A stretch of 64,000 bases of DNA from Oceaniglobus ichthyenteri (GTDB taxonomy: Bacteria; Pseudomonadota; Alphaproteobacteria; Rhodobacterales; Rhodobacteraceae): assembly GCF_003057885.1 (NCBI RefSeq), contig NZ_QAGK01000003.1, positions 248,001 to 312,000 on the forward strand. The letters are read 5' to 3'. The position numbers and the translations under genes are program-made. Under the pieces are notes generated by a model. It did no database searches, was not told where the DNA came from, and saw only the letters and a program-made list of their open reading frames with translations. Shown here piece by piece: positions 13,194 to 34,872 of this stretch (its first letter is position 1; each line of letters opens with the position of its first letter).

Positions 13194-13204
13194 TACGTCT
13201 ATCC

Positions 13205-13221: not shown

Positions 13222-13230
13222 AACCTTCGT

Positions 13231-13251: not shown

Positions 13252-13278
13252 CAAGTTCTTTTTTTGGAAAGTCGCCCG

Positions 13279-14492: not shown

Positions 14493-15286
14493 TATTGGAC
14501 AGTTTTTTGATCCGTGCGGCATTGGCGGGGGTGGGCGTGGCGCTGGCTGCGGCACCGCTGGGCTGTTTCGTCGTGTGGCGAAGGATGGCGTATTTCGGCG
14601 ATGCCACGGCCCATGCGGCGATACTTGGCGTTGCGCTGTCGCTGGCCTTTTCCATGTCGGTGTTTGTGGGCGCATTGGTGGTGGCACTGGCCATGGCAGG
14701 GCTTGTATCGTCCCTGTCAAACCGGGGTTATGCGATGGATACGCTGTTGGGCGTGCTGGCCCACTCGGCGCTGGCCTTTGGATTGGTTGCGGCGTCGTTT
14801 CTGACCGGGGTGCGGTTGGATCTGATGGCTTATCTGTTTGGTGATATCCTGGCCGTGTCGCGCACCGATGTGATGGTGATCTGGGGCGGCGCGGCGCTGG
14901 TTCTGGCGCTGCTGTCGTGGCGGTGGTCGGCGCTTCTTACTGCGACACTGAACACCGATCTGGCCTATGCCAGCGGTATTGATCCGCGGCGCGAACAACT
15001 GGTGCTGACCGTGGCGCTGGCCGTGGTTGTGGCCGTGGCGATAAAGGTGGTTGGTGCGCTGTTGATTGGGGCAATGTTGGTGGTGCCCGCTGCCGCCGCC
15101 CGGCCTCTGGCGCGCACGCCCGAATCCATGGCGATCATCGCGGCAGTGATCGGTGCCGCCTCGGCCCTGGGGGGATTGGCGGCGGCGTTTCGGTTCGACA
15201 CGCCCACCGGCCCCACCATCGTATGTGTGGCTGCGGTGTGTTTTGCCGTTACGGCAGTATTTGGCGGAGTGCGCCGCGCGGCTTGA
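14489..15286 (+). CDS. znuB: Zinc ABC transporter, permease
   Basis: The inner-membrane channel of the ZnuABC importer: 265 residues with seven to eight hydrophobic segments of the ABC-3 family, including the conserved WRRMAYFGDATAHAAILG segment near the N terminus and the GALLIGAMLVVPAAAARPLA segment. I use MILDSFLIR, whose ATG overlaps the znuC stop codon; longer in-frame versions would lie inside znuC. The stop codon is within the -35 region of the gntK promoter. Confidence 0.95.
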   Translation: MILDSFLIRAALAGVGVALAAAPLGCFVVWRRMAYFGDATAHAAILGVALSLAFSMSVFVGALVVALAMAGLVSSLSNRGYAMDTLLGVLAHSALAFGLVAASFLTGVRLDLMAYLFGDILAVSRTDVMVIWGGAALVLALLSWRWSALLTATLNTDLAYASGIDPRREQLVLTVALAVVVAVAIKVVGALLIGAMLVVPAAAARPLARTPESMAIIAAVIGAASALGGLAAAFRFDTPTGPTIVCVAAVCFAVTAVFGGVRRAA

Positions 15287-16923: not shown

Positions 16924-17051
16924 TCCAGACGCACGCTTTTCCCAACGGTTGTGCGTTCCTGGGTGGAAAATCCGGCATAGGTGCGCAATCCGAAATTCGC
17001 GCTTACCGCAATCACGACAATGGCGACGAAGGCCAAGATCATTACCTTCAT
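16920..17051 (-). CDS. 43-residue single-span membrane protein coupled to fdhC
   Basis: Read directly from the minus strand: ATG AAG GTA ATG ATC TTG to a TAA. Its ATG overlaps the TGA of fdhC by four bases (ATGA), the strongest form of coupling in this genome. The product starts MKVMILAFVAIVVIAVSANF, one hydrophobic helix, followed by a 20-residue polar tail ending TTVGKSVRLD. By analogy with other tiny subunits of membrane respiratory enzymes, it may stabilise the cytochrome b subunit or attach the dehydrogenase; that is inference. Not recognised as a named family. Confidence 0.7.
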   Translation of the reverse strand: MKVMILAFVAIVVIAVSANFGLRTYAGFSTQERTTVGKSVRLD

Positions 17052-18226
17052 GTTTTCGCCCCCTTGTTTTCGCGCGCTTTCACTTCATCCACCCAAATGC
17101 TGTGGTGTTCGCGGGCCCATTGCTCTTCGACATCGCCCGACCCCATGGCGGCATAGGCCCCCTCCATTCCGACAGAGCCGATATAGATATGGGCCAGCAC
17201 AATGGTGGCCAGAACAATGCTGACGATTGAATGCCACAACTGGGCATATTGCATTTCTTCATGGGGCGTCAGTGCCGTGTTCAGGGGCGCCTGATTGAAC
17301 CATCCGGGAATGCCCCAGGCATTTATGGTTTCAAATGTCGCCGCAAACATCGGCATTTCAAACGGAAACAACAGCGAAAGCCCGGTAACGGAAATCGACG
17401 TGCCCAACAGGATCACCGACCAGAAGATCACCTTTTGACCGGCATTGAACTTTTTCGCCGGGGGATGGCCCCCCCCGAAAATGCCGCCACCTTTCAACAG
17501 CCAATTGATATCGGTCTTGTCCGGCAGGTTATGCGCGACCCAAAACACGAATATAATGACGAGGGCCAGCATGAAGGCCCAGGAAACGTTGTTGTGAATC
17601 AACTTGCAGGCAAGGGCGACGGTGGAAAACGCATCATGCCCGATCACCGGAATGATGAATTTTCGGCCAAACAGGGTGATCGTGCCCGACAGCGCCAACA
17701 AAATGAACGAACCTGCCAACAGCCAATGACCAAACCGTTCGGCGGCTTTGAAACGTTCGATCCTACGGCCGGTTTTTTCGCCTTCAATCGGAATGCGGCC
17801 CCGGATCAGGTAAAACAAAATCAGCGCAATCAGCGTGCCCAACAGGATGAAGAACCCATAAGTCATCAGCGGCCCGCGCTGTTTCAGCCACCACATGCCG
17901 CGATCCTGAATCAGAACTTCGGCGGCAGGGCCGTTGTTTTGGGTGGTGACATCGGCGGTGTTGAACCGCAGGGCGCGCCACAATTCAGGGTCTGACGCCC
18001 CGCCGCGCGTGCCAAGTTGTTCTGTAATCGGCAGCCCTGCATCAGGGTTGCCGGTATTTGCGCGTCGGGCGCTGTCGTCGACCTTTTGTTGGGCCTGACG
18101 GGCCATGATATCGGCCAGCGTGGGCGCACCGCCCGTCGATGAGCGATCAGGAATTTCCTGAGCCTGAACGAGGCCCGCCATAAGAATGATGCTGAGCGTA
18201 CAAAGTACGGTTCGAAGAATATTCAT
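17048..18226 (-). CDS. fdhC: Formate dehydrogenase, cytochrome b556 (gamma) subunit
   Basis: Carries electrons from the Fe-S subunit to the quinone pool in the inner membrane. The 392-residue protein has a signal peptide (ILRTVLCTLSIILMAGLVQA) and a periplasmic region of about 100 residues, then four or more membrane spans with His ligands for two hemes (RFGHWLLAG; KLIHNNVSWAF; the C-terminal LWHSIVSIVLATIVLAHIY). The long N-terminal periplasmic region is usual in the alphaproteobacterial FDH gamma family. I start at MNILRTV with an AGAGGAAAAG ribosome site. It is separated from fdhAB by a lipoprotein gene and terminator. Confidence 0.93.
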   Translation of the reverse strand: MNILRTVLCTLSIILMAGLVQAQEIPDRSSTGGAPTLADIMARQAQQKVDDSARRANTGNPDAGLPITEQLGTRGGASDPELWRALRFNTADVTTQNNGPAAEVLIQDRGMWWLKQRGPLMTYGFFILLGTLIALILFYLIRGRIPIEGEKTGRRIERFKAAERFGHWLLAGSFILLALSGTITLFGRKFIIPVIGHDAFSTVALACKLIHNNVSWAFMLALVIIFVFWVAHNLPDKTDINWLLKGGGIFGGGHPPAKKFNAGQKVIFWSVILLGTSISVTGLSLLFPFEMPMFAATFETINAWGIPGWFNQAPLNTALTPHEEMQYAQLWHSIVSIVLATIVLAHIYIGSVGMEGAYAAMGSGDVEEQWAREHHSIWVDEVKARENKGAKT

Positions 18227-18357
18227 CGGCGGCTTTTCCTCTACCTGGGCGTGCCTCAGATTAGCCCAACGGGACAAAAGTGGGAAGGCTCTGAACACAG
18301 TTCACTACCGTTTGATCCGATAGGTCTGGCGTCGGCCCCGTGCCGGGCTATGCCCAC

Positions 18358-18386
18358 GAAAAAGGGCACCCAAATCGGGTGCCCTT
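18358..18386 (-). terminator. Rho-independent terminator after the lipoprotein gene
   Basis: On the minus strand, AAGGGCACCC-GATTT-GGGTGCCCTT is followed directly by five T in the DNA. It is a strong intrinsic terminator lying between the lipoprotein gene and fdhC. Confidence 0.85.
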
Positions 18387-18403
18387 GATCGGTGTCAGGT
18401 TGA

Positions 18404-18661
18404 TCAGCAGGGGGCGGTATAACGCGACCCGTCACTGCGCTGGTACACGCACTGGCCCGGCTGGTTGGCCCGGCCGATATAGTTACCCGCCGCAGCACCG
18501 GCAGCCCCGCCGATAAGCGCGCCAACAACTTTGTCATTCCCGCCCGATACAGCGGCCCCCGTGGCGGCCCCCAAAGCGGCCCCTGTCAGGGTCGATTGAC
18601 CGGGTGTATCGCAGGCAGCGACCAGACCGACGAGGGGAAGAACGAAAAACAGGCGTCTCAT
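18404..18661 (-). CDS. Glycine-zipper lipoprotein
   Basis: An 85-residue lipoprotein: the signal MRRLFFVLPLVGLVAAC has a lipobox ending in Cys17. The mature part is Ala/Gly-rich with repeated small-x3-small spacing (GAALGAATGAAVSGG; GALIGGAAGAAAGNYIG), a glycine-zipper membrane helix pair. The C terminus has a Cys pair (QCVYQRSDGSRYTAPC) that may form a disulphide. Such proteins sit at the outer membrane of Proteobacteria; function unknown. It interrupts the fdh gene order and carries its own terminator. Confidence 0.85.
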   Translation of the reverse strand: MRRLFFVLPLVGLVAACDTPGQSTLTGAALGAATGAAVSGGNDKVVGALIGGAAGAAAGNYIGRANQPGQCVYQRSDGSRYTAPC

Positions 18662-18783
18662 AAGACTACTCCGATATGTGGAACTCGTACACCAAGACCG
18701 CAGGTCAGGGAAAGTTCCCGTTAAAAGTGAAAAGTATCCCCAGACATTTTCGCCCCGGGATACGGGTGTCAGAACATCAGGGC

Positions 18784-19377
18784 TTAACCGCCCTTTTGAT
18801 CATAGGCGGTGCCCCAGCCCCAGGCGCCCGATCCAAATCCGCGCGCCACAACGCGTTCGCGGTAAATGTTGGCAACATCGTTGCCATCACCGGCCAACAG
18901 GGCCTTGGTGGCGCACATTTCCGCACAAAGCGGCAGTTTACCCTCGGCGATCCGGTTCCGACCGTATTTCTGGAACTCGGCCGCCGAATGGTTTTCTTCC
19001 GGGCCACCGGCGCAGAAGGTGCATTTGTCCATCTTGCCGCGCGATCCGAAATTCCCCGCCTGTGGAAACTGCGGCGCACCAAAGGGGCAGGCGTAAAAGC
19101 AGTACCCACAGCCAATGCACAGATCTTTCGAGTGCAGGACCACGCCATCATCGGTCTGATAAAAGCAATCCACCGGGCACACCGCCATGCAGGGCGCGTC
19201 GGAACAATGCATACAGGCCACGGAAATCGACCGTTCGCCCGGTTTGCCATCATTGATGGTGATCACCTTGCGGCGGTTGATGCCCCACGGCACCTCGTGT
19301 TCGTTCTTACAGGCCGTGACGCAGGCGTTGCATTCAATGCAGCGTTCGGCGTCGACCAGAAACTTTGCTCTTGCCAT
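18784..19377 (-). CDS. fdhB: Formate dehydrogenase, iron-sulfur (beta) subunit
   Basis: Passes electrons from FdhA to the membrane subunit through four [4Fe-4S] clusters. The 197-residue protein has clear cluster motifs in CIECNACVTACKNEH, CMHCSDAPCMAVCP, CIGCGYCFYACPFGAP and CTFC plus CAEMC. Unlike E. coli FdnH it has no C-terminal membrane anchor, which is typical for the FDH3 type. It has no signal peptide of its own and would be co-exported with FdhA's Tat signal. It is twelve bases downstream of fdhA, so co-transcribed. Confidence 0.95.
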   Translation of the reverse strand: MARAKFLVDAERCIECNACVTACKNEHEVPWGINRRKVITINDGKPGERSISVACMHCSDAPCMAVCPVDCFYQTDDGVVLHSKDLCIGCGYCFYACPFGAPQFPQAGNFGSRGKMDKCTFCAGGPEENHSAAEFQKYGRNRIAEGKLPLCAEMCATKALLAGDGNDVANIYRERVVARGFGSGAWGWGTAYDQKGG

Positions 19378-19389
19378 CTCGTTCTCTCC

Positions 19390-22380
19390 TTACGCTGTCC
19401 AGATTTTGCAGAGGGTCGCTTTGGTCTCTTGCATCTGGGTTACGCTGTCATAGCCATAGGTTTGGGCGGTGTTGGTGGATTCACCCAACACATAGGGATC
19501 GGCGCCTTTGGGGTATCTGTCGCGCAGATCAACGCCTTCCATGTGACCACCAAAGTGGAACGGCATGAAGGCCACGCCGCTGGCGACACGTTCGGTCACC
19601 ATTGCCATCACTTTCACCTTGCCGCCTTCAGGGCCTTCGACCCAAACCTGTTCGCCATCCCGCACGCCCAGATTATTGGCATCGCGAATGTTGATTTCCA
19701 CGAACATATCCTGCTGCAATTCGGCCAGCCACGGGTTTGAACGGGTTTCATCACCGCCACCCTCGTATTCAACCAAACGCCCTGAAGTCAGGATGATGGG
19801 ATATTCTTTCGAAAAGTCGTTTTCCTGAATTGACGCATACATGGTGGGCAGACGCCAGAACTGTTTATCCTCATAGGTTGGATAATCGGCCACCAGATCG
19901 CGGCGGTTGGTATAGAGCGGTTCGCGGTGCATCGGGATCGGATCAGGGAACGTCCACACGACGGCGCGGGCCTTGGCGTTGCCATAGGGTGCACAGCCGT
20001 GTTTTATTGCCACCCGTTGGATCCCGCCCGACAGGTCGGTTTTCCAGTTCACACCACCGGATTTCGCCTGATAATCCGACGGAATTTCGCCTTGTTGGCT
20101 GGTTTCGCCGACTTCCTGTTCTGGGCCGGGGCCGGGATCACCATCGGGGAAGCCGGCCACACGGTTGATCGCCGCCAGTTCCTCATCGGTCAGGTCGCCG
20201 TCCCATCCCAGATCGCGCAGCATCTGCATGGTAAATTCGGGATATCCATCCTGAATTTCCGAACCCACCGGATACACGCCTTCGGCCAACAGATTGTCGC
20301 CGTTACGCTCGACACCAAACCGGGCGCGGAACCCCATGCCGCCTTCGGCCACGGGCACCGAAAGATCGTACAGGTTGGGTGAACCGGGGTGGTTCATTTC
20401 GGCGGTGCCCCAGCTGGGCCATGGCAGGCCGTAATAATCGCCATCGGCCGGGCCGCCCACGGCGCGCAGCGTGGTCTTGTCGAACGTGTGCTGGTTGGCC
20501 ATGTGCATCTTCATCCGCTCGGGCGATTGGCCGGTATAACCGATCGTCCACATGCCGCGGTTGAATTCGCGGGTGATGTCTTCGACATTCGGTTCATCCC
20601 CGTCCATGCCGATATTGCGGAACATCTTGTCGTGAAAGCCGAACTTTTTCGAGAACATCGAAATGATCTCATGATCGGTTTTCGATTCAAACAATGGCTC
20701 GACCACCCGGTCACGCCACTGCAATGACCGGTTCGAGGCGGTGACCGACCCGCGTGTTTCATACTGGGTCGTGGCGGGCAGCAGGTAACAGCCATCCTGG
20801 CGGTCCTGCATCACGGCCGACACGGTTGGGAACGGATCGATCACGACCATCAGGTCGAGTTTTTCCATCGCCGTGATCATTTCTTTCTGGCGGGTCTGCG
20901 AGTTGGGGGCGTGGCCCCACAGAACCATGGCGCGGGTATTGTCGGGCTGATTGATATTCTCTTTCGCCTCAAGCACACCATCGATCCAGCGCGAAACCGT
21001 GATCCCCGGTTCGCCCATCATCTGGCGGTCTTCGCCGTCTGCGCCAGCGCCTTGCATGACTGAAAAACGCCCTTTCAGCCAATCCAGGTCTTCCTCCCAG
21101 ACCCGCGCCCAATGGGCCCAGGATCCGTCGGACAACCCGTAATATCCGGGCAAGGTATCGGCCAGAACGCCCAGATCGGTGGCGCCTTGTACGTTGTCGT
21201 GCCCCCGAAAGATGTTGGTGCCCCCCCCGGACCGACCCATGTTGCCAAGGGCAAGTTGCAAGATGCAATAAGCGCGGGTGTTGTTGTTACCGTTGCTGTG
21301 CTGGGTGCCACCCATGCACCAGATCACTGTGCCGGGCCGGTTGTTGACCAGGGTGCGCGCGACACGGGCCAGTTGTTTGCCCGGTGTGCCGGTGACACGC
21401 TCAACCTCTTCGGGGTTCCATTTGGCGACTTCGGTCTTGATCTGGTCCATACCCCACACGCGGGTGCGGATGAATTCCTTGTCTTCCCAACCGTTGTCGA
21501 AAATGTGCCACAGGATGCCCCAAACCAATGCCACGTCGGTGCCGGGGCGGAACCGGACATATTCATCGGCATGGGCCGCTGTACGGGTGAACCGCGGATC
21601 GCATACGATCAGGGGGGCGTTGTTCTGTTCCTTGGCCTTGAGAAGGTGCAACAGCGACACGGGATGTGCCTCGGCGGGGTTGCCGCCGATCACAAAGATC
21701 GCCTTGGAATTGTGGATGTCATTATAGCTGTTGGTCATGGCGCCGTAGCCCCATGTGTTGGCCACACCCGCCACCGTGGTCGAATGGCAGATCCGCGCCT
21801 GGTGGTCGATGTTGTTGGTGCCCCAATAGGCGGCAAACTTGCGCAACAGATAGGCCTGTTCGTTGCTGTGCTTGGCCGAGCCCAGCCAGTACACCGAATC
21901 GGGGCCGGATTCATCGCGGATTGCGGCCATCTTGTCGCCGATTTCGTTGATCGCCTGATCCCACGAAATCCGCTCCCATTCGCCGCCGACTTTTTTCATC
22001 GGGTATTTCAGGCGGCGTTCGCCATGGGCATGTTCACGCACCGATGCGCCCTTGGCACAATGGGCGCCCAGGTTGAATGGGCTGTCCCAGCCGGGTTCCT
22101 GGCCGATCCAGACGCCGTTGGCGACTTCGGCAATGACGGTACAGCCGACCGAACAATGGGTGCAGACGGATTTGATGATTTCAACATTGCCGGTCATTGC
22201 CTGTTGTGCCGTGGCGCGGGTCACCGACCCGCCGGTGGCCGAAATCGCCGCCAAGCCGCCAATCGCCAGCCCGGACCCGCGCAAGAATGCGCGCCGGTCT
22301 ACCGACGTGTTGGCCACCTGGGCGGCAATACCACCGCGCGCGGTGCGCCGGGACGTGCTGTTTGTCTTTTTGCGTAACAT
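19390..22380 (-). CDS. fdhA: Formate dehydrogenase, molybdenum/tungsten catalytic (alpha) subunit, Cys type
   Basis: Oxidises formate to CO2 in the periplasm. The 996-residue protein begins with a long basic leader and the Tat motif DRRAFLRG (residues 28-35). The proximal [4Fe-4S] cluster ligands are Cys73, Cys76, Cys80 and Cys108. The metal ligand is Cys198 in ARICHSTT, where E. coli FdnG has selenocysteine; no TGA codon is present. The molybdopterin-binding domains follow, and the C-terminal dinucleotide-binding domain (ILTSGRLVEYEGGGDETRSN) is intact. FdhD, needed for sulfuration, is not in the window. Confidence 0.97.
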   Translation of the reverse strand: MLRKKTNSTSRRTARGGIAAQVANTSVDRRAFLRGSGLAIGGLAAISATGGSVTRATAQQAMTGNVEIIKSVCTHCSVGCTVIAEVANGVWIGQEPGWDSPFNLGAHCAKGASVREHAHGERRLKYPMKKVGGEWERISWDQAINEIGDKMAAIRDESGPDSVYWLGSAKHSNEQAYLLRKFAAYWGTNNIDHQARICHSTTVAGVANTWGYGAMTNSYNDIHNSKAIFVIGGNPAEAHPVSLLHLLKAKEQNNAPLIVCDPRFTRTAAHADEYVRFRPGTDVALVWGILWHIFDNGWEDKEFIRTRVWGMDQIKTEVAKWNPEEVERVTGTPGKQLARVARTLVNNRPGTVIWCMGGTQHSNGNNNTRAYCILQLALGNMGRSGGGTNIFRGHDNVQGATDLGVLADTLPGYYGLSDGSWAHWARVWEEDLDWLKGRFSVMQGAGADGEDRQMMGEPGITVSRWIDGVLEAKENINQPDNTRAMVLWGHAPNSQTRQKEMITAMEKLDLMVVIDPFPTVSAVMQDRQDGCYLLPATTQYETRGSVTASNRSLQWRDRVVEPLFESKTDHEIISMFSKKFGFHDKMFRNIGMDGDEPNVEDITREFNRGMWTIGYTGQSPERMKMHMANQHTFDKTTLRAVGGPADGDYYGLPWPSWGTAEMNHPGSPNLYDLSVPVAEGGMGFRARFGVERNGDNLLAEGVYPVGSEIQDGYPEFTMQMLRDLGWDGDLTDEELAAINRVAGFPDGDPGPGPEQEVGETSQQGEIPSDYQAKSGGVNWKTDLSGGIQRVAIKHGCAPYGNAKARAVVWTFPDPIPMHREPLYTNRRDLVADYPTYEDKQFWRLPTMYASIQENDFSKEYPIILTSGRLVEYEGGGDETRSNPWLAELQQDMFVEINIRDANNLGVRDGEQVWVEGPEGGKVKVMAMVTERVASGVAFMPFHFGGHMEGVDLRDRYPKGADPYVLGESTNTAQTYGYDSVTQMQETKATLCKIWTA

Positions 22381-22431
22381 GTCTTTCTCCCTTCCCTCGC
22401 TCCCTTTCGGGGCTGGGTATTGGTGGTGTTC

Positions 22432-22620
22432 TTAAAACCGGGCGCTGGCCAGATAGGCACGGGTGTGGGCGGTATCCTGCATGGTTTGACTGTCCAGGTT
22501 CACCTCGGCGCTGGCCTTGGTCGGGGTCAGGGTTGCGGCGACCACGGCGGCGGGGGCGGCAGTGCCGGCCAGTTTCAGAAAATCGCGGCGGCTTGCGCCT
22601 TTTTCGGTGTCTTTGGTCAT
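22432..22620 (-). CDS. 62-residue Tat-signal protein of the formate dehydrogenase region
   Basis: Begins MTKDTEKGASRRDFLKLAGT, a canonical twin-arginine signal (SRRDFLK), then a hydrophobic Ala/Val stretch and an Ala-x-Ala site near residue 37. Only about 24 residues remain after cleavage. It belongs to the small family annotated as formate dehydrogenase region Tat target. Its place between the TorD-like chaperone and fdhA suggests a subunit or assembly factor of the enzyme. I use the MTKDTEKG start; upstream in-frame codons overlap the torD end and are not protein-like. Confidence 0.88.
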   Translation of the reverse strand: MTKDTEKGASRRDFLKLAGTAAPAAVVAATLTPTKASAEVNLDSQTMQDTAHTRAYLASARF

Positions 22621-22681
22621 TGGGATGTCTCCCTTTCTGATGTGGTGGGCATCCCCACCGGTGATTGCCCCGAACGGGGGA

Positions 22682-23284
22682 TTAGACGGCGAGGCGAAAC
22701 GCCTCACGCTCGATCTCAAGAAATGCGCGGCCCACATCGCCCACAGAGGCATACAGGACCGAATTCTTCGCACCTGTCAGATCGGTAAAGAAATGCGGTG
22801 CCCAGGGTGCGATATGGGCGCCGAAAAACGTTTTCTGCTGACTCAGATCGGCAGGTCGGCCAAACCGGCCCACGATCATCCCGCCCATCATCTCCATCAG
22901 CGATGCGGCGTTGTCTTCGGGTTCAAACACATTGGCGGCGCGGGTGATGCCAAGTTGGCTCATGTCCGTGCGCAGCCGGGCCAACGGTTTTTCGTTCAGG
23001 AACCCAGTCAGATAATAACTGGCATAAGGGAGCAGTTCGCCACGCCCCAACCCGATGAACAGCGCGTTGAATTCGCTGCGCACGGCCTTTGGTTTGCTGA
23101 CGCGCGCCACATTGGCCAGCCCCGCAATGGCACGGCCCAGTTCAGTATCATCGCCGGTCAATCCCGCGCATTGATCCAACAGCAGTTGATCGGGCGGCCC
23201 CGCCAAAAGCAGGCCGATAAAATTATAGAGATCCGCGCGCAGGCGGTCTTCGGCGCTGATGTCGATGGTTGGGGCGGTGTTCAT
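22682..23284 (-). CDS. TorD/DmsD family Tat proofreading chaperone
   Basis: A 200-residue all-helical cytoplasmic chaperone of the TorD/NarJ superfamily, which binds the Tat signal of a molybdoenzyme until the cofactor is inserted. The RADLYNFIGLLLAGPPDQ start, the LLPYASYYLTGFL motif (a variant of the family's Y-x-S-x-Y) and the late ENVFEPEDNAASLMEMM-like segment support the assignment. Target inferred from position: FdhA, and possibly the 62-residue Tat protein just downstream. Four-base overlap with DUF3306. Confidence 0.9.
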   Translation of the reverse strand: MNTAPTIDISAEDRLRADLYNFIGLLLAGPPDQLLLDQCAGLTGDDTELGRAIAGLANVARVSKPKAVRSEFNALFIGLGRGELLPYASYYLTGFLNEKPLARLRTDMSQLGITRAANVFEPEDNAASLMEMMGGMIVGRFGRPADLSQQKTFFGAHIAPWAPHFFTDLTGAKNSVLYASVGDVGRAFLEIEREAFRLAV

Positions 23285-23871
23285 ACGCTGGCCTCTTGAT
23301 CAAAACGAAACCGCATGCGGCGCGGGGCGGGTGCGGGTTCTGGCGCCGTTTCGGCAGTGGCAACCGGCATATCGGCGGGCGCTTCGGTTTCGGCCTCGGG
23401 TGCAGGTTCGACTGCGTCATCCTCGGCAATGTGCTCTGACGGGTCTTCCTCAGGATTGCACGCTTCTGCCTTGCGCGCCAGCGCTTCGATATGGGCCAAC
23501 ATGCCTTTGCCCACCTGATAGGTTGTGGCAATCACGCCATTTCCGGTTGAACCGGTCAGGTAATCATCATCGTAATCGTTCAACCCGTCAACACAGGCCA
23601 ATACCGGATTGCTGCGCCATAATTTGCGCAGGGCGCGGTTGCGCAGCCGCAGTGGCACGCCTTTGGCCATGAACGCGGCAAAATCATCGCCCATTTTCAA
23701 CGTATCGGGATCGGGCAGGTTCAGACGCGCCAGCACTGCCTCATCGGGTTCGGCCTCTGACGCGGCGTCAATCTGGGCCTGATGTTCGGCTTCGGCGATC
23801 CGCGCCTCTTCGGCCTGTTCCGCGCGTACGGCGGCGCGGCGGCGATCCCAGTATGAAAGGTGGTTTGTCAT
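23281..23871 (-). CDS. DUF3306 family protein
   Basis: A 196-residue soluble protein. The first half (SYWDRRRAAVRAEQ, then FAAFMAKGVPLRLRNRALRKLWRSNPV) is the conserved DUF3306 part; LRNRALRKLWRSNPVLACVDGLNDYDDDY is its most recognisable stretch. The second half is an acidic, Glu/Ala/Pro-rich disordered tail that ends in a basic patch (RRMRFRFDQ). DUF3306 genes regularly adjoin formate dehydrogenase genes, but no biochemical role is established to my knowledge. Overlaps both neighbours by four bases. Confidence 0.88.
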   Translation of the reverse strand: MTNHLSYWDRRRAAVRAEQAEEARIAEAEHQAQIDAASEAEPDEAVLARLNLPDPDTLKMGDDFAAFMAKGVPLRLRNRALRKLWRSNPVLACVDGLNDYDDDYLTGSTGNGVIATTYQVGKGMLAHIEALARKAEACNPEEDPSEHIAEDDAVEPAPEAETEAPADMPVATAETAPEPAPAPRRMRFRFDQEASV

Positions 23872-24425
23872 GACCGCACCTTGTGGCCGGGCGCGCGGTA
23901 AACATCAGAGGGTTGCGCAATGCGCGCATCGCCCACGCCGTCTTCCACCTGATCAACGCGGGTATTGCGCCGCTTGCGTTTGACAAAGGGTTCTTCGCGG
24001 TGATGTTCGTCAATGAACTCCTGAATCCAGGCGGCCATTCCGGCGGGCATCGCCACGCGTTCCACCACTTCTTCGCCCGAATCGCAGTAATCCTGCCCCT
24101 CATAGGGGGACACGGTCACAACCTGTGGCTCAAGCGGGAATTCACCCTCGCTGGGGCGAAGAACCACATAAACCGATGGCTGTTCGGCCTGCAATTCGTG
24201 AACATAAGCCTCGGTATCCGATGGATACAGGGTCAGCGGCAGTGTGGCCGCATGATAGAGGGAAACCGTGTCGGAGTGCGCCAGCACTTTCCATTTCGCA
24301 GGCCCGGCACCGGGCAACACATCGGATGCCGACCAGGCCCATTTGGCCCATCGCGTCACCCCAGGTGTCCGTTTCAGAACCACACCCAAGGGCACAGTCC
24401 TTGATTTGCTGAACAGAAAGGCCAA
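23868..24425 (-). CDS. DUF3305 family protein
   Basis: A 185-residue soluble protein, first in the fdh run. The family core is PLGVVLKRTPGVTRWAKWAW plus the LYHAATLPLTLYPSDTEAY segment. The start is TTG with an AGAGGA ribosome site, and a GTG nine codons later (VPLGVV) is the other possibility. The C-terminal third is basic. DUF3305 and DUF3306 occur together beside formate dehydrogenases; they may help install the cofactor or cluster, which is inference. The 208-base gap to the divergent ferredoxin gene must hold the promoter for the whole fdh run. Confidence 0.87.
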   Translation of the reverse strand: MAFLFSKSRTVPLGVVLKRTPGVTRWAKWAWSASDVLPGAGPAKWKVLAHSDTVSLYHAATLPLTLYPSDTEAYVHELQAEQPSVYVVLRPSEGEFPLEPQVVTVSPYEGQDYCDSGEEVVERVAMPAGMAAWIQEFIDEHHREEPFVKRKRRNTRVDQVEDGVGDARIAQPSDVYRAPGHKVRS

Positions 24426-24633
24426 GTTGTTCCTCTTGCGTTTGCGGTGTATCTATTGTGCAATAATTTCCTGCAGTTAAAAAGCAAAATTTTGTTCACT
24501 GTTGCATACATCGGGATTGACACAGTGAAACCGAGGGCCGCATCCATGGGCCGCGTTTTGGGTTTACCTTAGCCCGCTTTCCTGACCAAATGGGCGCCGA
24601 AAAGCGGGGGAATGCCCGCAAAAGGGGATCGAC

Positions 24634-26586
24634 ATGACCAACACCGTTCTGATCTGCAGCTGCCTTGGCAGTCAAACCGTTGCGGGTGATACGATCGAAG
24701 GCGCAACCGGGCAGCGCTGTTCGCGGCTGCATTCTGCCCTGTGCACGGATCAGATAGATATCGTGGCGCAGGCACTGCAGGCGGGGCCGGTGACGATTGC
24801 CTGTGGTCAGGAGGTGGCGCGTTTCGAAGAGTTGGCCGAAGAGCTGGGGGTTGAACCGCCGCTTTGTGTCGATCTGCGGGATCGAGCAGGGTGGTCGGAG
24901 CAGGGCGATGAGGCGGGGCCGAAAATGGCCGCACTTCTGGCCGAAGCCGCGGTTGCGGTGGCACCTGCGCGCACGATGGATGTGGAATCCGAAGGCACCT
25001 GTCTGATTCTCGGCGCCGCCGATGTGGCGCTGGCGGCAGCGCGGGATCTGGCCGATATTCTGGCGGTGACTGTGTTGCTCGACACCGCCGATGAGGTTGA
25101 ACATACCACCGCGTTTGATGTGGTGGTGGGGCGTCTGGCGCGGGCCAGCGGCACGTTGGGTCAATTTTCCCTGCGCATCGACGGGTTGCAACAGGTTGTG
25201 CCCGGCGGGCGCGGCGCGCCTGTGCTGACACCACCCCGTGATGGCGCGCAGTCCGAATGCGATATTATTCTGGATCTGCGCGGAACAACGCCGCTGTTTC
25301 CCGCGCCGCAAAAGCGCGATGGATATCTGCGCGCCGATCCGGGCCGCCCGGCGGCGGTTGGGGCCGCCGTTCTGGCCGCATCGCAGATGGTGGGAACGTT
25401 TGAAAAACCGCTTTATATCCGGCTGGAGCCGACATTATGCGCCCATTCGCGGGCCGAACAGGTGGCCTGTACCAACTGTCTGGATATTTGCCCGACCGGT
25501 GCATTCATGCCCGATGGCGACCATGTGGCGATTGATCCGATGATCTGTGCGGGCTGTGGGGCCTGTTCGGCGCTGTGCCCATCGGGGGCGATCACCTATG
25601 ACGCGCCCAGTGTTGAGTCGGTGTTTCGCCGGCTGACCACATTGGCCGATACCTATCGCAAGGCCGGCGGTGGTGTGCCCCGCCTGTTGGTGCATGATGC
25701 GCCCCACGGGGCCGAGATGATCGCCCTTGTCGCGCGCTATGGCCGCGGATTGCCGGCCGATGTGATCCCGCTTGAGGTGGCCGCCCTTGAGGGGTTCGGC
25801 CACGCCGAAACCCTGGCCGCCCTGATGGTGGGCTTTGCCAGTGTCGATATCCTGCTGACGCCGAAAACCGACCGTACTGCGCTTGAACGCGAGGCGGCGC
25901 TGACCGGGGCGATTGCGCCGGGTGCGGTGACATTGATTGATATGGTTGATCCTGATGCCCTGTCCGATCACCTGTATGGTGGCGCGGCGCGCGCACCGGT
26001 CATCCAGACCGCACTGCCCATGGGCAGCCGCCGTCAGGTGGCGCGTCTGGCGGCGCGGGCGCTGAATCCCGATGGCGCGATGTTGGATTTGCCTGTGGGC
26101 GCCCCTTACGGCGCGGTTGTCGTCGATACCGACGCCTGCACCCTGTGCCTGTCGTGTGTGTCATTGTGCCCATCGGGTGCGCTGGGCGACAATGACGATC
26201 TGCCGCAATTGCGGTTTCAGGAAGATGCCTGTTTGCAATGCGGGCTGTGCGCCAACATCTGCCCCGAAAACGCGATCACGCTTGAACCCCGGTTCAACCT
26301 GACCGAAACCGTCCTGCGCCAGGTGGTTCTGCACGAGGAAGAACCGTTCGCCTGTATCGAATGCGGCAGCCTGTTCGGGGTGAAATCCACCGTCGAGAAG
26401 ATCACCGAGAAACTGGCCGGGAAACACGCGATGTTCGCCAATCCCGCCGCTGCGCGGATGATCCAGATGTGCGACAACTGCCGCGTGCAATCACAGTACC
26501 ACAGTCAGAACAACCCGATGGCCGGAGCAGAGCGCCCCCGCGTGCGCACCACCGACGATTATTTGTCAAAGCGCAAGGACCACTAG
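24634..26586 (+). CDS. Large multi-cluster 4Fe-4S ferredoxin-type protein
   Basis: A 650-residue soluble protein with no signal peptide. A first ferredoxin pair lies at Cys279-286 and Cys305-315 (CAGCGACSALCP), and a second full pair at Cys502-512 and Cys533-543. Extra Cys pairs occur at 574/577 (CIECG) and 613/616 (CDNC), and an N-terminal CSC at 8-10. The regions between (residues 15-270 and 330-490) look globular and are not recognised. It would hold at least four [4Fe-4S] clusters and may carry electrons or clusters in the cytoplasm. Divergent from the fdh run and first gene of a five-gene unit. Confidence 0.85.
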   Translation: MTNTVLICSCLGSQTVAGDTIEGATGQRCSRLHSALCTDQIDIVAQALQAGPVTIACGQEVARFEELAEELGVEPPLCVDLRDRAGWSEQGDEAGPKMAALLAEAAVAVAPARTMDVESEGTCLILGAADVALAAARDLADILAVTVLLDTADEVEHTTAFDVVVGRLARASGTLGQFSLRIDGLQQVVPGGRGAPVLTPPRDGAQSECDIILDLRGTTPLFPAPQKRDGYLRADPGRPAAVGAAVLAASQMVGTFEKPLYIRLEPTLCAHSRAEQVACTNCLDICPTGAFMPDGDHVAIDPMICAGCGACSALCPSGAITYDAPSVESVFRRLTTLADTYRKAGGGVPRLLVHDAPHGAEMIALVARYGRGLPADVIPLEVAALEGFGHAETLAALMVGFASVDILLTPKTDRTALEREAALTGAIAPGAVTLIDMVDPDALSDHLYGGAARAPVIQTALPMGSRRQVARLAARALNPDGAMLDLPVGAPYGAVVVDTDACTLCLSCVSLCPSGALGDNDDLPQLRFQEDACLQCGLCANICPENAITLEPRFNLTETVLRQVVLHEEEPFACIECGSLFGVKSTVEKITEKLAGKHAMFANPAAARMIQMCDNCRVQSQYHSQNNPMAGAERPRVRTTDDYLSKRKDH

Positions 26587-26659
26587 CGCCCGGCGCGGTC
26601 CCTTGACTGTACCGCGATAAGGGCCAACATCATTTCAAAGCAATCAAAGGAGCGACCCC

Positions 26660-26851
26660 ATGAGCGAAGATTTCAACATGTCGATGCGCAAGTTTCTGAA
26701 ACAGGTCGGCGTGACCTCGCAACAGCAGATCGAAGAAGCCATGCGCGAAAAGGGTGCAAGCGGCAAAACCTATGAGGCCAAGATGGTTCTGACCATTGAT
26801 GGCCTTGAATTGGAACACACCGTCACGGGCACGATTTCGGGGCAAAGCTGA
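26660..26851 (+). CDS. DUF6494 family small protein
   Basis: A 63-residue soluble protein with the family start MSEDFNMSMRKFLKQVGVT, then EEAMREKGASGKTYEAKMVLTIDGLE, preceded by a strong AAAGGAG ribosome site. The N-terminal half is helical, the C-terminal half looks like a short beta sheet, and no Cys are present. DUF6494 is a family of unknown function. It lies one base from the Mrp-type ATPase start, so the two are probably made in fixed ratio and may interact. Confidence 0.85.
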   Translation: MSEDFNMSMRKFLKQVGVTSQQQIEEAMREKGASGKTYEAKMVLTIDGLELEHTVTGTISGQS

Positions 26852-26852
26852 G

Positions 26853-27917
26853 GTGGCGCTGACCCGTGATGATGTTCTTGCGGCGCTGAAAACAATCACC
26901 GATCCCTTGGCCGGGTCCAGCATTGTTGACGCCGGTATTGTCAAAGCGTTGACCGTGCAGGATGGCGCGGTGCGGTTCGTATTGGAAATCGCACCCAGTC
27001 AGGCAAATGCATATCAGGCGGTGAAAGACGCCGCCGAGGCGCGGGTGAAAGCATTGGATGGGGTGGGCACGGTTTCGGTCGTGCTGACCGCTCACTCCAC
27101 CCCATCCGCCCCGCCGGATCTGCAAATGCGCAAATCCGAACCCAAGGGTCCGCAGAAAATTCCCGGTGTTGATCGGATACTGGCAATCGCCAGCGGCAAG
27201 GGCGGCGTCGGAAAATCCACCGTCGCGTCGAACCTGGCCTGTGCGCTGGCGGCTGAAGGGCGGCGTGTGGGCATGTTGGATGCCGATGTCTATGGCCCCA
27301 GCCAACCGCGTATGTTGGGCGTGTCGGGGCGGCCCGCATCGCCCGATGGCAAAACCATTCTGCCCCTGCGTAATTACGGCGTCACGATGATGAGCATCGG
27401 GTTGATGACCAACGAAGATCAGGCGGTCGTCTGGCGTGGCCCGATGTTGATGGGCGCGTTGCAACAGATGATGATGCAGGTGCAATGGGGCGCGCTGGAT
27501 GTGTTGATCGTCGATCTGCCGCCGGGCACCGGCGATGTGCAGATGACCCTGGCGCAAAAGGCCGACGTAACCGGCGCACTGATCGTCAGCACGCCCCAGG
27601 ATGTGGCATTGCTCGATGCGCGCAAGGGCATTGATATGTTTAACCAACTGAACGTGCCGATTGTGGGCATGATCGAAAACATGTCGACCCATATCTGCAC
27701 CAATTGCGGCCACGAAGAACATGTGTTCGGCCATGGCGGCGTGGCCAGCGAGGCGGCAAAACTGGGCGTGCCTTTGCTGGCGGAAATTCCGCTGCATCTG
27801 TCGATCCGACAGGCCAGCGATGGCGGCGCGCCGATTGTGGTGTCGGCCCCCGACAGCGCGCAGGCCCAGGTATTTCGCAGCGTCGCGCGCGATCTGATCG
27901 CAAAGGGTCAGGCGTAA
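26853..27917 (+). CDS. apbC: Mrp/NBP35 (ApbC) family iron-sulfur cluster carrier ATPase
   Basis: A cytoplasmic P-loop ATPase that carries and transfers Fe-S clusters. Of 354 residues, the first 90 form a MIP18/DUF59 domain, and the deviant Walker A SGKGGVGKST is at about 110-119. The bridging-cluster Cys pair is in HICTNCGHEEHVFG (about 282-285). I start at GTG (VALTRDD) directly after the DUF6494 stop; an earlier ATG lies inside that gene in another frame and gives no family-like sequence. Being next to formate dehydrogenase accessory genes suggests a dedicated role in FDH or ferredoxin cluster loading. Confidence 0.92.
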   Translation: MALTRDDVLAALKTITDPLAGSSIVDAGIVKALTVQDGAVRFVLEIAPSQANAYQAVKDAAEARVKALDGVGTVSVVLTAHSTPSAPPDLQMRKSEPKGPQKIPGVDRILAIASGKGGVGKSTVASNLACALAAEGRRVGMLDADVYGPSQPRMLGVSGRPASPDGKTILPLRNYGVTMMSIGLMTNEDQAVVWRGPMLMGALQQMMMQVQWGALDVLIVDLPPGTGDVQMTLAQKADVTGALIVSTPQDVALLDARKGIDMFNQLNVPIVGMIENMSTHICTNCGHEEHVFGHGGVASEAAKLGVPLLAEIPLHLSIRQASDGGAPIVVSAPDSAQAQVFRSVARDLIAKGQA

Positions 27918-28613
27918 ATGGATCTGCCGCCGCTGTTTTCGCCGCTTGCCAGTGCCGGGGCCGATCCGTTTGCCGTGGCGGTGGCCGAGGCGCGGGCGGG
28001 GTGTGACGCCGGGCTGGTGGTTTATGATTTTGACCACGAAAGGCTGCGCGCGGCGATTGTATTCGCCCCCGAAGTAACGCTGTCACAGGCGGTGATCATG
28101 CTGCCCCTGTGCGGGATCGGGTTTCAGAACGCCCTTGGCGCGCTGGGCCCGCCCGAAGTGGCGGTGCATCTGGGTTGGGATGGGACGCTGCGGGTGAACG
28201 GCGCGGTGTGCGGCACCTTGTCGATGGCCGCGGCGCCCCGTGATCCTGGGGCCGAGCCTGATTGGTTGGTGATTTCACTTGATCTGGCCCTGTGGGCGCC
28301 AATGGGCGACACGGGTCTTACCCCCGACACCACGACCCTGGCCGCAGAAGGCTGTGGCGATGTCGAACCGGGCGTATTGTTGCCCGCCTGGCTGCGCCAT
28401 ACCCTGGTGTGGCTGACCACATGGGAGGATGAGGGCAACGCGCCGCTGCACCGCGAATGGATCGGGCTGGCCCATGGAATTGGCACCGATACGGTGATAT
28501 TGGGGCAGGCGGGGCATTTTACCGGGGTCGATGCCGATTTTGGCCTGCTGTTGAAAACCCAAGGCGGCACACGGCTGTTGCCGCTGAGTGATGTGATAAG
28601 GGATGTGCCATGA
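27918..28613 (+). CDS. Biotin/lipoate protein ligase-fold protein with DUF4444 domain
   Basis: A 231-residue soluble protein. Residues about 1-180 follow the biotin/lipoate ligase fold, and the C-terminal 45 residues (from LHREWIGLAHGIG to LLPLSDVI) are the DUF4444 domain. The ATP/biotin loop GRGRxGR of real ligases is absent, and the segment equivalent to the catalytic Lys motif reads NGAVCGTL, with Ala at the Lys place, so ligase activity is doubtful. It starts immediately after the Mrp stop and overlaps DUF6505 by four bases. Probably a binding or scaffold protein of the FDH accessory group; inference. Confidence 0.82.
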   Translation: MDLPPLFSPLASAGADPFAVAVAEARAGCDAGLVVYDFDHERLRAAIVFAPEVTLSQAVIMLPLCGIGFQNALGALGPPEVAVHLGWDGTLRVNGAVCGTLSMAAAPRDPGAEPDWLVISLDLALWAPMGDTGLTPDTTTLAAEGCGDVEPGVLLPAWLRHTLVWLTTWEDEGNAPLHREWIGLAHGIGTDTVILGQAGHFTGVDADFGLLLKTQGGTRLLPLSDVIRDVP

Positions 28614-29104
28614 AACTGGCCCGCGCGATCCATTTCGACGAAAGTGATACGCGGGTGTTTCACAGCCCCGCGCGCACCGGTGAGTGGTGCATTTCCGGTG
28701 GGTTTGAATTTTCGAACTGGTCCGAGGCGGATTTGACCGGCAAGGCAAAACAGGCATTTTCAAACGGTTGGATGGGCTGTGAAACCTTTGGGCGGGTCAG
28801 TTTCGTGGCGGTGACACAGGTTGAACCGGGCGAGGTTGAGGCATTGACCCAAGCCCTGGCACAGCATTTCGTGGATATTTACGGCGCGCCATCGCTTGAG
28901 GCCGCCCGTGGTGTGGCCGAGGGCGAAATCGCCCACATGGCCGAATTATGCGAAGATGCCACGCCAAACACCCTGTTGACGGTTGCGCGCGAACTGACCG
29001 AAGCGGGGGTGCGCGAAGGATACCGCATGATCGAGCCGCAAGACGCCGGATTGGAACAATTTGCCATTCACGGCTCTCTTGATGATGAGCCCCACAGCCA
29101 TTGA
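28610..29104 (+). CDS. DUF6505 family protein
   Basis: A 164-residue soluble protein, last gene of the five-gene unit. It starts MKLARAIHFDESDTRVFHSPA, a pattern I associate with DUF6505. The middle reads GEWCISGGFEFSNWSEADLTGK and NGWMGCETFGRVSFVAV, and the second half is helical. Two Cys and a C-terminal HSH could bind a metal. Function unknown. Translational coupling to the DUF4444 protein (ATGA overlap) implies a joint function. Confidence 0.82.
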   Translation: MKLARAIHFDESDTRVFHSPARTGEWCISGGFEFSNWSEADLTGKAKQAFSNGWMGCETFGRVSFVAVTQVEPGEVEALTQALAQHFVDIYGAPSLEAARGVAEGEIAHMAELCEDATPNTLLTVARELTEAGVREGYRMIEPQDAGLEQFAIHGSLDDEPHSH

Positions 29105-29209: not shown

Positions 29210-29512
29210 ATGACATTTAATTCGCAACTGAAATTGGGCCTGGGGCTGTTGATGCTGGCCGGGTTGCCCGCAACCGCCAGTGCGCAGGATGCCGCGCTTT
29301 ACGCTTATCCGACGGAAAATTTCTGTCCGGCAGGATTGCAGCCGATCACGATTTCCGGCGTCATCTGTTGCGGTGTGCCAACCCGCGCGCAAAGCTATGC
29401 ACAGATGATGCAGCATCCGGTTCAGCGCAAAGTCCAAAAGGTACGCCGGGTGCAGCGTGAATATATCCCGACGCAAAAGGGCATTCCGACCGGCAAAGGG
29501 TTGGGAGACTGA
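29210..29512 (+). CDS. Small secreted hypothetical protein
   Basis: A 100-residue protein with a Sec signal peptide (LKLGLGLLMLAGLPATASAQD, cleavage near residue 26). The short mature part has three Cys (ENFCPAGLQP; GVICCGVP) followed by a very basic tail (VQRKVQKVRRVQREY). Similar small proteins occur in other Rhodobacterales, but I do not know a function. The Cys and basic residues suggest an envelope protein that binds an acidic partner or metal. A strong terminator follows the stop codon. Confidence 0.7.
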   Translation: MTFNSQLKLGLGLLMLAGLPATASAQDAALYAYPTENFCPAGLQPITISGVICCGVPTRAQSYAQMMQHPVQRKVQKVRRVQREYIPTQKGIPTGKGLGD

Positions 29513-29550
29513 AAAAAACCTGCCCACTCAGACTGACGTGGGCAGGTTTT
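29511..29550. terminator. Bidirectional intrinsic terminator
   Basis: AACCTGCCCAC and GTGGGCAGGTT pair around a 10-base loop. On the plus side the stem is followed by TT after AGGTT, and on the minus side by a run of seven T in the DNA. It serves the convergent small secreted protein gene and, more strongly, thrS. Confidence 0.88.
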
Positions 29551-33453: not shown

Positions 33454-34749
33454 TTATTCTGCCGCAGTCGCTTTTGGTGGGGTTTTGGTTTGCACCTGCT
33501 GTGTCGGTGTCACGGCTGAGCGGCTGTTGCGATCAATGAAGTCCAGCACGAGGGGGCGGATATTGTTACGCCAGCTTTTGCCAGCGAAGATGCCATAGTG
33601 GCCCGCGCCCGGTTCGACATGGGATGCCTTTTTGCTGTCGGAGAGGCCGGTCAGCAGATCAAGCGCCGCCAGACATTGACCGGGGGCGGAAATATCATCA
33701 TTTTCACCTTCGACGATTTTCACGGCAACATCGGTGATTTTCCCGATGTCCACCTTGTGACCGGCGACGGTGAAATCATTACGGGCGATGTCACGGTTCT
33801 TGAACACCTGTTCAACGGTGGAAAGGTAGAATTCGGCGGTCATATCCATCACTGCCAGGTATTCATCATAGAACTTGTTGTGTTTGTCGTGATCGCCCGC
33901 TTCGCCTTGGGCGACCTTCATGATCTGATTCGAAAATGCCTTGGAGTGGGTTTCAAGGTTCATCGAAACAAAGGATGACAGCTGCAACAGGCCCGGATAT
34001 ACCATGCGCCCGGCGCCGGCATATTTGAAACCAACCCGTTGAATCGCCGCTTCTTCCAGTTGGCCCATGGTGATGCGGCGGCCAAAATCGGTGACATCGG
34101 TGGCGGCGGCGTCCGGGTCGATCGGGCCACCAATCAGGGTCAGTGATGCGGGCTGTGCGCCGGGGTCCTGTTCGGCCAGTAGCGCCGTTGCCGCAAGGGC
34201 CAGGGGCGCGGGTTGGCACACCGCGATGACATGGGTGTCAGGGCCGAGATGGCGCATGAAATCAGCCAGATAGAGGGTGTAATCCTCAATATCGAATTTG
34301 CCCTTGGACACCGGGATATCGCGGGCATTGTGCCAATCCGTGATCCAGACATCGGCATCGGGCAACAGCGAATTCACGGTTGAACGCAACAGCGTGGCAT
34401 AATGCCCCGACATGGGTGCAACCAACAAAATGCGCCGGGTGCGTGCAGGGCGCCCCGATACATCAAATCGGATCAGATCGCCAAACGGGCGCGACAGCTC
34501 GGTTTCGACGTTCACGACCATATCACGGCCATCAAGGTTAAGAATACTGCCGATGCCCCAATCGGGTTTGGCCACCATGCGTGCAAAGCTGCGTTCGGTG
34601 ACATCACCCCAAGCGGCCATCATCTGAAACATGGGATTGGGAACCAGGCCAACGGCCGGGTAGGATCCGATGGCCGACGCGGTTGCGCCCAGCCATTGAT
34701 TGGTGTTGCGGATGGTCTCCAATAGATCATAGGTCGCCATGTATCGCAT
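33454..34749 (-). CDS. phaZ: Intracellular polyhydroxybutyrate depolymerase
   Basis: Mobilises stored poly-3-hydroxybutyrate from granules. The 431-residue protein belongs to the PhaZ type with a Cys nucleophile: VCQPAP (Cys178) is the active-site elbow, and the Asp and His are in ENDDISAPG and EPGAGHYGIFAG. The N terminus MATYDLLETIRNTNQWLG is typical. A GGAG ribosome site stands four bases before the first ATG; a second ATG three codons in is possible. Divergent from phaC, so synthesis and breakdown share one intergenic region and probably PhaR control. Confidence 0.95.
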   Translation of the reverse strand: MRYMATYDLLETIRNTNQWLGATASAIGSYPAVGLVPNPMFQMMAAWGDVTERSFARMVAKPDWGIGSILNLDGRDMVVNVETELSRPFGDLIRFDVSGRPARTRRILLVAPMSGHYATLLRSTVNSLLPDADVWITDWHNARDIPVSKGKFDIEDYTLYLADFMRHLGPDTHVIAVCQPAPLALAATALLAEQDPGAQPASLTLIGGPIDPDAAATDVTDFGRRITMGQLEEAAIQRVGFKYAGAGRMVYPGLLQLSSFVSMNLETHSKAFSNQIMKVAQGEAGDHDKHNKFYDEYLAVMDMTAEFYLSTVEQVFKNRDIARNDFTVAGHKVDIGKITDVAVKIVEGENDDISAPGQCLAALDLLTGLSDSKKASHVEPGAGHYGIFAGKSWRNNIRPLVLDFIDRNSRSAVTPTQQVQTKTPPKATAAE

Positions 34750-34836
34750 ATTGCTCCTTACTCAGGGGGGTGCCCCGATAGAATCACACTTTGAACCCAT
34801 CTGACAGAATCGTTATGATGGGGGGCGCGGTTCTTA

Positions 34837-34851
34837 TGCTGCTGTGCAGCA
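34837..34851. promoter_or_regulatory. PhaR box before phaC
   Basis: TGCTGC-TGT-GCAGCA is a perfect inverted repeat matching the CTGC-N3/4-GCAG sites described for the PhaR repressor of Paracoccus. It lies 22 bases before the phaC ATG in the phaZ-phaC intergenic region. Confidence 0.75.
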
Positions 34852-34872
34852 ATTTAGGGTGGAAATATTAAT

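Follow-up and report, generated by a model that had tools for sequence, protein, structure and literature searches.

Formate dehydrogenases (FDHs) are wanted for CO2 reduction, and the entry of iron-sulfur (Fe-S) clusters and the molybdenum (Mo) cofactor into the exported enzymes is understood only in part. In periplasmic Mo enzymes the cofactors are inserted ahead of export, and in nitrate reductase NarJ orders Fe-S and Mo-cofactor insertion, according to the sections of PMC10609526 that treat these enzymes. Genes for DUF3305, DUF3306, TorD and fer4 proteins near fdh are already known from fdhGHI operon loci, as described in the relevant part of PMC4464133. Here, we analyzed a 64,000-nucleotide stretch of the Oceaniglobus ichthyenteri genome (Rhodobacteraceae; contig NZ_QAGK01000003.1, G000:C23:248001-312000; hereafter the window). 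In it, an fdh run headed by DUF3305, DUF3306 and TorD-type genes stands back to back with five genes for a multi-cluster ferredoxin protein, DUF6494, an Mrp-type ATPase, a protein of the biotin-ligase fold (PF16917 and DUF4444) and DUF6505. We propose, with a probability of about 0.6, that the last four genes, together with the ferredoxin protein and DUF3305/DUF3306/TorD, constitute a dedicated biogenesis system for the FDH3 type of formate dehydrogenase, with Mrp as the cluster carrier. With it, four functionally uncharacterized families (DUF6494, DUF6505, DUF4444 and, from other genomes, DUF6352) acquire roles that can be tested, and a candidate gene set is named to co-supply for FDH3 expression in other hosts.

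FDH3 as the partner enzyme

The window encodes an enzyme of the FDH3 type: FdhB exceeds the FDH3_beta cut-off, and FdhA is close to a solved formate dehydrogenase and has cysteine at the active-site position (ARICHSTTVAG, aligned with ARLCHAPTVAG of the FdhF chain 7qv7_S). Against the canonical FDH alpha family (TIGR01591) FdhA scores 483.9 bits, under the cut-off of 666.25. The sequence of FdhA shows a twin-arginine motif (DRRAFLRGSGL), and the FdhC subunit is of the cytochrome b type; electrons are therefore expected to flow to quinone, and FDH3 is probably an exported, membrane-bound enzyme. A preliminary description of this DNA had proposed that the five genes load clusters or cofactor into FDH or its ferredoxin donor; given these two features, such a donor is not indicated.

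The distribution of the accessory families was examined in 195 genomes of the same family as the window, 106 with an FDH3-beta match over cut-off and 89 without; a match to FDH3-beta or TIGR01591 had to exceed its cut-off to count as FDH3 or FDH, respectively. The ligase-fold protein was counted only as a PF16917 match over 150 bits. PF16917 matches of any score occur in 178/195 genomes, and those left out (about 35-55 bits among the ones listed) are probably biotin ligases. DUF6505 is present in 104 of the 106 FDH3 genomes versus none of the 89 others, DUF3305 and the ligase-fold protein each in 105/106 versus 0/89, and DUF6494 in 85/106 versus 2/89. The exceptions are G020 and G023, where DUF6505 is missing, and G164, where both DUF3305 and the ligase-fold protein are missing. 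In eight of 87 genera some members have FDH3 and others do not, and DUF6505, DUF3305 and the ligase-fold protein track it in all eight. Among 14 control genomes, DUF6505, DUF3305, DUF6494 and over-cut-off FDH3-beta are each absent (0/14), PF16917 is found in 3 and PF10609 in all 14. Fisher values for the co-occurrence range from 4e-32 to 7e-56 and overstate the number of independent events, given the relatedness of the genomes and the linkage of most of the genes.

Thus, the functional tie to FDH suggested in the preliminary description survived the refuting test set for it beforehand, equal frequency in genomes without FDH, although not with FDH in general as the partner. Canonical FDH alpha is over cut-off in 192/195 genomes, whereas DUF6505 and the ligase fold follow FDH3, and the FdhA of the window itself lies below the canonical cut-off. 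This makes the tie specific to FDH3 and rules out "any FDH" as the partner. We consider it very likely that the accessory families are functionally tied to FDH3.

Some individual loci depart from the common pattern. In G164 (L069) the ferredoxin gene, DUF6494, Mrp and DUF6505 are kept, the ligase-fold gene, DUF3305, DUF3306 and TorD are not in the stretch, and a transposase-type gene (DDE_3) lies downstream of the retained genes. A second, divergent FDH3-like fdhABC (beta about 320 bits) occurs in G164, G144 and G157 (L068, L160, L161). No accessory gene accompanies it in the stretch, and the main set is present as well in G144 and G157. In G117, which has no FDH3-beta over cut-off, DUF6494 (L070:9211-9396) is found between a DsbD-type gene and genes for solute-binding proteins.

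The association extends beyond the family. Among 190 genomes sampled across the class, 3 of which belong to the window's family, 19 have DUF6505 over cut-off (one under-cut-off match, in G284, was left out) and 30 have DUF3305. Eighteen of the 19 DUF6505 genomes have DUF3305, and 17 have FDH3-beta over cut-off; the other two are G312, a genuine exception, and G320, the latter with a cut contig and FdhA in the same locus as DUF6505. A sample of 200 genomes from the phylum yielded DUF6505 in 15, of which 3 (L254-L256, one genus) belong to another class. These three carry the cluster in the layout of the window, minus DUF6494, and the simplest reading is that the cluster was likely transferred horizontally as a package. 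Lone DUF6505 genes away from fdh were seen in two genomes of one family, both with FDH3, near a carbon-nitrogen hydrolase (L141) or a gene of the peptidyl-arginine-deiminase family (L154).

Gene order and a movable block

The families, order and spacing previously reported for both gene sets were confirmed (Table 1), with all Pfam matches over cut-off and a divergent gap of 208 bases. The interval given at the time, 23281..29104, holds as to gene content except that the TorD-type chaperone gene falls just outside it. In gene order, the plus-strand gaps are 73, 1, 0 (stop and start abut) and -4 bases (an ATGA overlap). The match of the small twin-arginine translocation (Tat) signal protein to TIGR02811 is 30.7 bits, below the cut-off of 48.45, and covers residues 52-107 of the open reading frame (ORF) at 22432-22773.

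Table 1. Genes and intergenic region of the fdh locus, in window coordinates.
Feature	Position	Strand	Evidence
FdhC, cytochrome b561-type gamma subunit, N-terminal extension	17048-18298	-	TIGR01583 141.3 bits (cut-off 115.85); PF01292
FdhB, FDH3-type iron-sulfur subunit	18784-19377	-	NF038355 (FDH3 beta) 345.7 bits (cut-off 240)
FdhA, Mo/W-bisPGD (bis-pyranopterin guanine dinucleotide) catalytic subunit	19390-22380	-	closest solved chain 9vap_A, 1387.5 bits
Small Tat-signal protein of formate dehydrogenase regions	22432-22620 (start approximate)	-	TIGR02811, below cut-off
NarJ/TorD-type chaperone	22682-23284	-	PF02613 102.3 bits (cut-off 22.2)
DUF3306 protein	23281-23871	-	PF11748 79.3 bits
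DUF3305 protein	23868-24425	-	PF11749 151.4 bits
Predicted divergent promoter region, 208 bases between listed ORFs	24426-24633	.	
Multi-cluster ferredoxin protein, 650 aa	24634-26586	+	Fer4 families
DUF6494 protein, 63 aa	26660-26851	+	PF20104 102 bits
Mrp/ApbC-type P-loop ATPase (Mrp/NUBPL), GTG start at 26853	26853-27917	+	PF10609 332.8 bits; NF008669 348.2 bits (cut-off 348)
Biotin-ligase-fold protein (PF16917 + DUF4444)	27918-28613	+	PF16917 234 bits
DUF6505 protein	28610-29104	+	PF20115 275.4 bits

A peptide-pattern scan of the genome collection gave at least 587 relatives of DUF6505, of which we took the best 80, mostly from roseobacter-type genera by title. The order and strands of the genes for FdhA, TorD, DUF3306, DUF3305, the ferredoxin protein, Mrp, the ligase-fold protein and DUF6505 are the same in 78 of these 80 loci (the main layout), so the arrangement exceeds chance. 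In the remaining two the contig ends shortly before the neighbours of DUF6505; all 78 loci that are long enough show the cluster order. DUF6494 was undetected in 8/80, and the four examples shown are from Ruegeria. No shared regulatory motif is widespread in the divergent gap, the commonest 7-mer occurring in 26/78 gaps (the alignment comprised the window and 60 of the 78).

In other genomes part of the cluster has moved. In G052 block and fdh share a contig and are about 330 kb apart; they are on separate contigs in G122, G082 and the class-level genome G328, where the block consists of Mrp-ligase fold-DUF6505-DUF6352. The ferredoxin gene still adjoins DUF3305 in all four. Because it stays there when the other four genes have moved, the plus-strand genes divide into two parts: DUF6494-Mrp-ligase fold-DUF6505 is a movable block, the ferredoxin gene belongs with fdh and DUF3305/3306, and the 73-base gap is the seam between them. 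The "five-gene unit" of the preliminary description therefore stands as a matter of spacing in the window, but as one module it is ruled out by these unlinked layouts. A strict rule that the ferredoxin gene accompanies fdh is weakened by G298, G221 and G280, where none was detected around fdh, and by G244 and G351, where it is several kb from DUF3305.

Elsewhere the same genes are assembled differently. For example, G022, G037, G067, G125 and G136 have ligase fold-DUF6505-DUF6352-DUF3305-DUF3306-TorD-fdhABC-Mrp as one run, with the ferredoxin gene divergent from it; DUF6494 was detected further on only in G067 and G136. In G020 and G023, fdhC is followed by DUF6494, the ligase-fold gene and DUF6352, before the ferredoxin gene, and Mrp comes after DUF3306. 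DUF6352 (PF19879) is thus a further member outside the main layout, absent from the window, and it adjoins the ligase-fold and DUF6505 genes in many such loci (L061-L067, L128-L155, L257-L261). The arrangements that include it extend to other families of the class. Genes for WD40-repeat proteins were seen beside DUF6494 (L064:3024-4262, with an additional cytochrome c domain) and after fdhC (L128:11219-12568); the WD40-repeat protein is a possible partner of the exported enzyme. A Fer4/CCG-domain protein not seen in the main layout is encoded between fdhC and DUF6494 in G020 (L066:6187-7629).

Around the cluster, the window has a small ORF without Pfam match downstream of DUF6505 (29210-29512). 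It is followed at about 29515-29550 by an inverted repeat, aaacctgcccac/gtgggcaggttt, that resembles a terminator common to the DUF6505 side and the opposite-strand thrS. Genes for a NicO-type nickel transporter and for the ZnuA, ATPase and membrane proteins of a zinc ABC transporter occupy 11291-15286, adjoined by a LacI-type regulator gene at 15907. Divergent genes for a polyhydroxybutyrate (PHB) depolymerase and the polymerase PhaC are at 33454-36675.

Mrp, the ferredoxin protein and the ligase fold

Mrp proteins are general Fe-S carriers. The copy beside fdh has the deviant Walker A motif, the CxxC motif and the FeS_assembly_P domain of this family and scores just over the NF008669 cut-off. 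PF10609 is over cut-off in 195/195 genomes of the window's family, and the genome of the window has a second strong Mrp (G000:C33:95253, 331 bits) with 62% identity to the FDH-linked copy over the part compared. We built a tree of 54 Mrp rows, hand-picked from a larger number, with Shimodaira-Hasegawa-like approximate likelihood ratio test (SH-aLRT) support. Of 26 copies labelled housekeeping, 21 form one clade (support 100) that includes the window genome's own copy and 12 of the 13 housekeeping Mrps from genomes without FDH3; no FDH-linked Mrp falls inside. Thirteen of 18 FDH-linked Mrps from the main layout form a separate clade (98), joined by two copies from outside fdh loci (G096, G180). 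The Mrps of the layout with the divergent ferredoxin gene (100) and those of G020/G023 (99) are placed far off, beside two further non-fdh copies. The FDH-linked Mrp is thus a paralogue distinct from the housekeeping Mrp. Since fdh loci carry Mrps from more than one lineage, the tree suggests at least two recruitments, and this repeated recruitment is the best hint of an Fe-S role. That Mrp loads clusters for FDH3 is, in our estimate, an evenly balanced proposition.

In the ferredoxin protein, 16 cysteines and two further CxxC pairs are invariant in 25/25 aligned rows. By our assignment the 16 cysteines can form four [4Fe-4S] quartets, three with the usual spacing and the first (C269/279/282/286) unusual. 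A search of solved structures matched residues 237-334 to the ferredoxin region of HdrA; a likeness of the N-terminus to HdrA was seen by eye only, the structure search backing the ferredoxin region alone. These cysteines and the HdrA-like region would suit another explanation, in which the block works for the ferredoxin protein. This protein would carry electrons in the cytoplasm or act there as a reductase, tied to formate metabolism and matured by Mrp, and FdhA would be assembled independently of the block. The adjacency of the ferredoxin gene and DUF3305 in 78/78 complete main-layout loci (among the best 80) fits this as well. We nevertheless regard it as rather unlikely, as in G052, G122 and G082 the four-gene block lies apart from the ferredoxin gene, and the twin-arginine motif of FdhA and the cytochrome b FdhC imply that the electrons of the enzyme exit via the membrane.

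The two small families gave little in structural comparisons. DUF6494 keeps the core NMSxRKFLKxVGVTSQ at >90% in 91 sequences, and its predicted model (mean predicted local distance difference test score, pLDDT, 92.1) is one long helix plus a beta hairpin; a fold search against solved structures gave no convincing match (best E 0.99). DUF6505 is poorly modelled (mean pLDDT 54.7), with best E values of 0.049 in the fold search, none being <=0.001, and 0.085 in a profile search against solved structures.

The ligase-fold protein belongs to its fold family by PF16917 (Table 1) and by profile matches to BirA chains from E 1e-7, and it matches the solved structure 3bfm, deposited as "biotin protein ligase-like protein of unknown function". 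In BirA the lysine of KWPND is catalytic, and the GRGR-type motif is the nucleotide/biotin loop. The KWPND lysine aligns with glycine in the window protein and is absent from 138 of 139 distinct ligase-fold sequences; no alignment column exceeds 22.3% lysine, and a GRGR-type pattern occurs in 1/139. Because both motifs are lost, an active biotin or lipoate ligase is unlikely from the sequences, and we rejected this candidate; cofactor ligation by this protein is likewise unlikely. The corresponding scenario is that the protein remains an enzyme, attaching biotin, lipoate or a similar group to DUF6494 or an FDH subunit in the manner of the lipoate ligases that act on LbpA in sHdr sulfur oxidation. 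The fold family shared with biotin protein ligase and the two invariant lysines of the small neighbour DUF6494 would fit it, but biotinyl and lipoyl domains carry the modified lysine in a hairpin turn, whereas the DUF6494 lysines lie in the predicted helix. Moreover, the ligase-fold protein is present in 21/21 FDH3 genomes without detected DUF6494. Together with the lost motifs, this leaves the scenario very unlikely. A scaffold role for the fold is a tentative suggestion.

A proposed role in FDH3 biogenesis and comparison with known systems

The case for a dedicated biogenesis system is based on the co-occurrence with FDH3, the retention of the genes when unlinked, their re-clustering in varied layouts and the distinct Mrps. 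Alongside the observed gene content, co-occurrence, co-movement, lost ligase motifs and Mrp paralogy, we infer each biochemical step of the following scheme. The TorD-like chaperone would keep apo-FdhA in the cytoplasm, as is known for the TorD family. The second Mrp, whose family consists of ATP-dependent [4Fe-4S] carriers, would supply clusters to either FdhA/FdhB or the ferredoxin protein. The ligase-fold protein, its catalytic motifs lost, may serve for binding or as a scaffold, without catalysis; DUF6505, DUF6494 and, where other lineages have it, DUF6352 would be its putative adaptors. The completed FdhA-FdhB would be exported afterwards. Mrp as a cluster carrier fits this scheme because it stands beside a NarJ/TorD-type chaperone. 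A narrower version is more speculative, and we doubt it: the dead ligase fold would be a docking platform at which Mrp, DUF6494 and DUF6505 (and DUF6352) load [4Fe-4S] clusters into TorD-held apo-FdhA or FdhB, replacing the FdhE of E. coli.

Several observations weigh against a dedicated FDH3 role. Part of the co-occurrence is explained by physical linkage. Two genomes that lack FDH3 have DUF6494 (G117 and, with a weak match of 25 bits, G143), and it was undetected in 21/106 FDH3 genomes. The two Mrps near the FDH-linked clade sit outside fdh loci, and the genome of one, G180, is without FDH3. At class level, DUF6505 is matched in G312 (at 79 bits, with one internal stop) in the absence of DUF3305 and of over-cut-off FDH3-beta, and 12 of the 30 DUF3305 genomes are without DUF6505, which speaks against a universal need for it. 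Four of these 12 (G237, G264, G300, G341) have other block genes nearby; the other eight, some of them short contigs or incomplete genomes, show no block genes in the stretch taken. FDH3 can therefore occur where no block is present in cis.

Two broader explanations fare worse. The block could be a general maturation system for Fe-S proteins or molybdoenzymes that counts FDH3 as just one of its clients, in line with the general carrier function of Mrp proteins and with the DUF6494 gene in G117. This is very improbable, as PF10609 is found in 195/195 and another FDH alpha in 192/195 genomes, yet DUF6505 and the ligase-fold protein in 0/89 without FDH3. Least likely of all is that the genes have a task of their own and merely travel with fdh, for although the co-occurrence is mostly among adjacent genes and a single gain or loss would carry them all, they are kept when unlinked, re-clustered in several arrangements and accompanied at fdh loci by different Mrp lineages.

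In the open-licence literature, with subscription papers outside its scope, we found no paper on DUF6494, DUF6505, DUF6352, DUF4444 or the accessions PF16917, PF19879, PF20115, PF20104, PF11749 and PF11748. A search for 3BFM or its locus tag gave only one unrelated paper, and nothing useful was found on Mrp/ApbC with FDH, on roseobacter fitness data or on a recent structure of FDH3.

One of the closest described arrangements is that of the fdhGHI loci, where a TorD/DmsD-type chaperone, DUF3305, DUF3306, a Tat-signal protein and 4Fe-4S genes likewise stand beside fdh; the passage describing them names no Mrp or ligase-fold gene (PMC4464133). Both this source and the fdh run behind them in the window bear out the earlier statement that DUF3305 and DUF3306 are FDH neighbours. 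The FdhD/FdhE system of E. coli is similar in its working, a dedicated cytoplasmic maturation before Tat export, as far as the account in PMC10609526 goes; our cluster differs in that none of its proteins scanned (17048-29104 only) matches FdhD or FdhE. Sulfur oxidation by sHdr with LbpA and lipoate ligases also clusters an Fe-S protein with a ligase-fold protein, in the portions of PMC6067878 and PMC10332631 concerned with it, but here the ligase-fold protein is without the motif lysine and, unlike in sHdr/LbpA, no lipoyl-carrier domain was matched at E 0.001 in the five plus-strand proteins. BirA is of the same fold family by sequence and differs in retaining the KWPND lysine and GRGR loop lost in the window protein, whereas 3bfm is a close relative that shares the losses of the BirA motif at the aligned W position. 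Finally, the Mrp/ApbC/NBP35 carriers have the P-loop GKGGVGKS, the CxxC motif and the FeS_assembly_P domain in common with the Mrp of the block, which here is not the housekeeping gene but a separate paralogue beside fdh.

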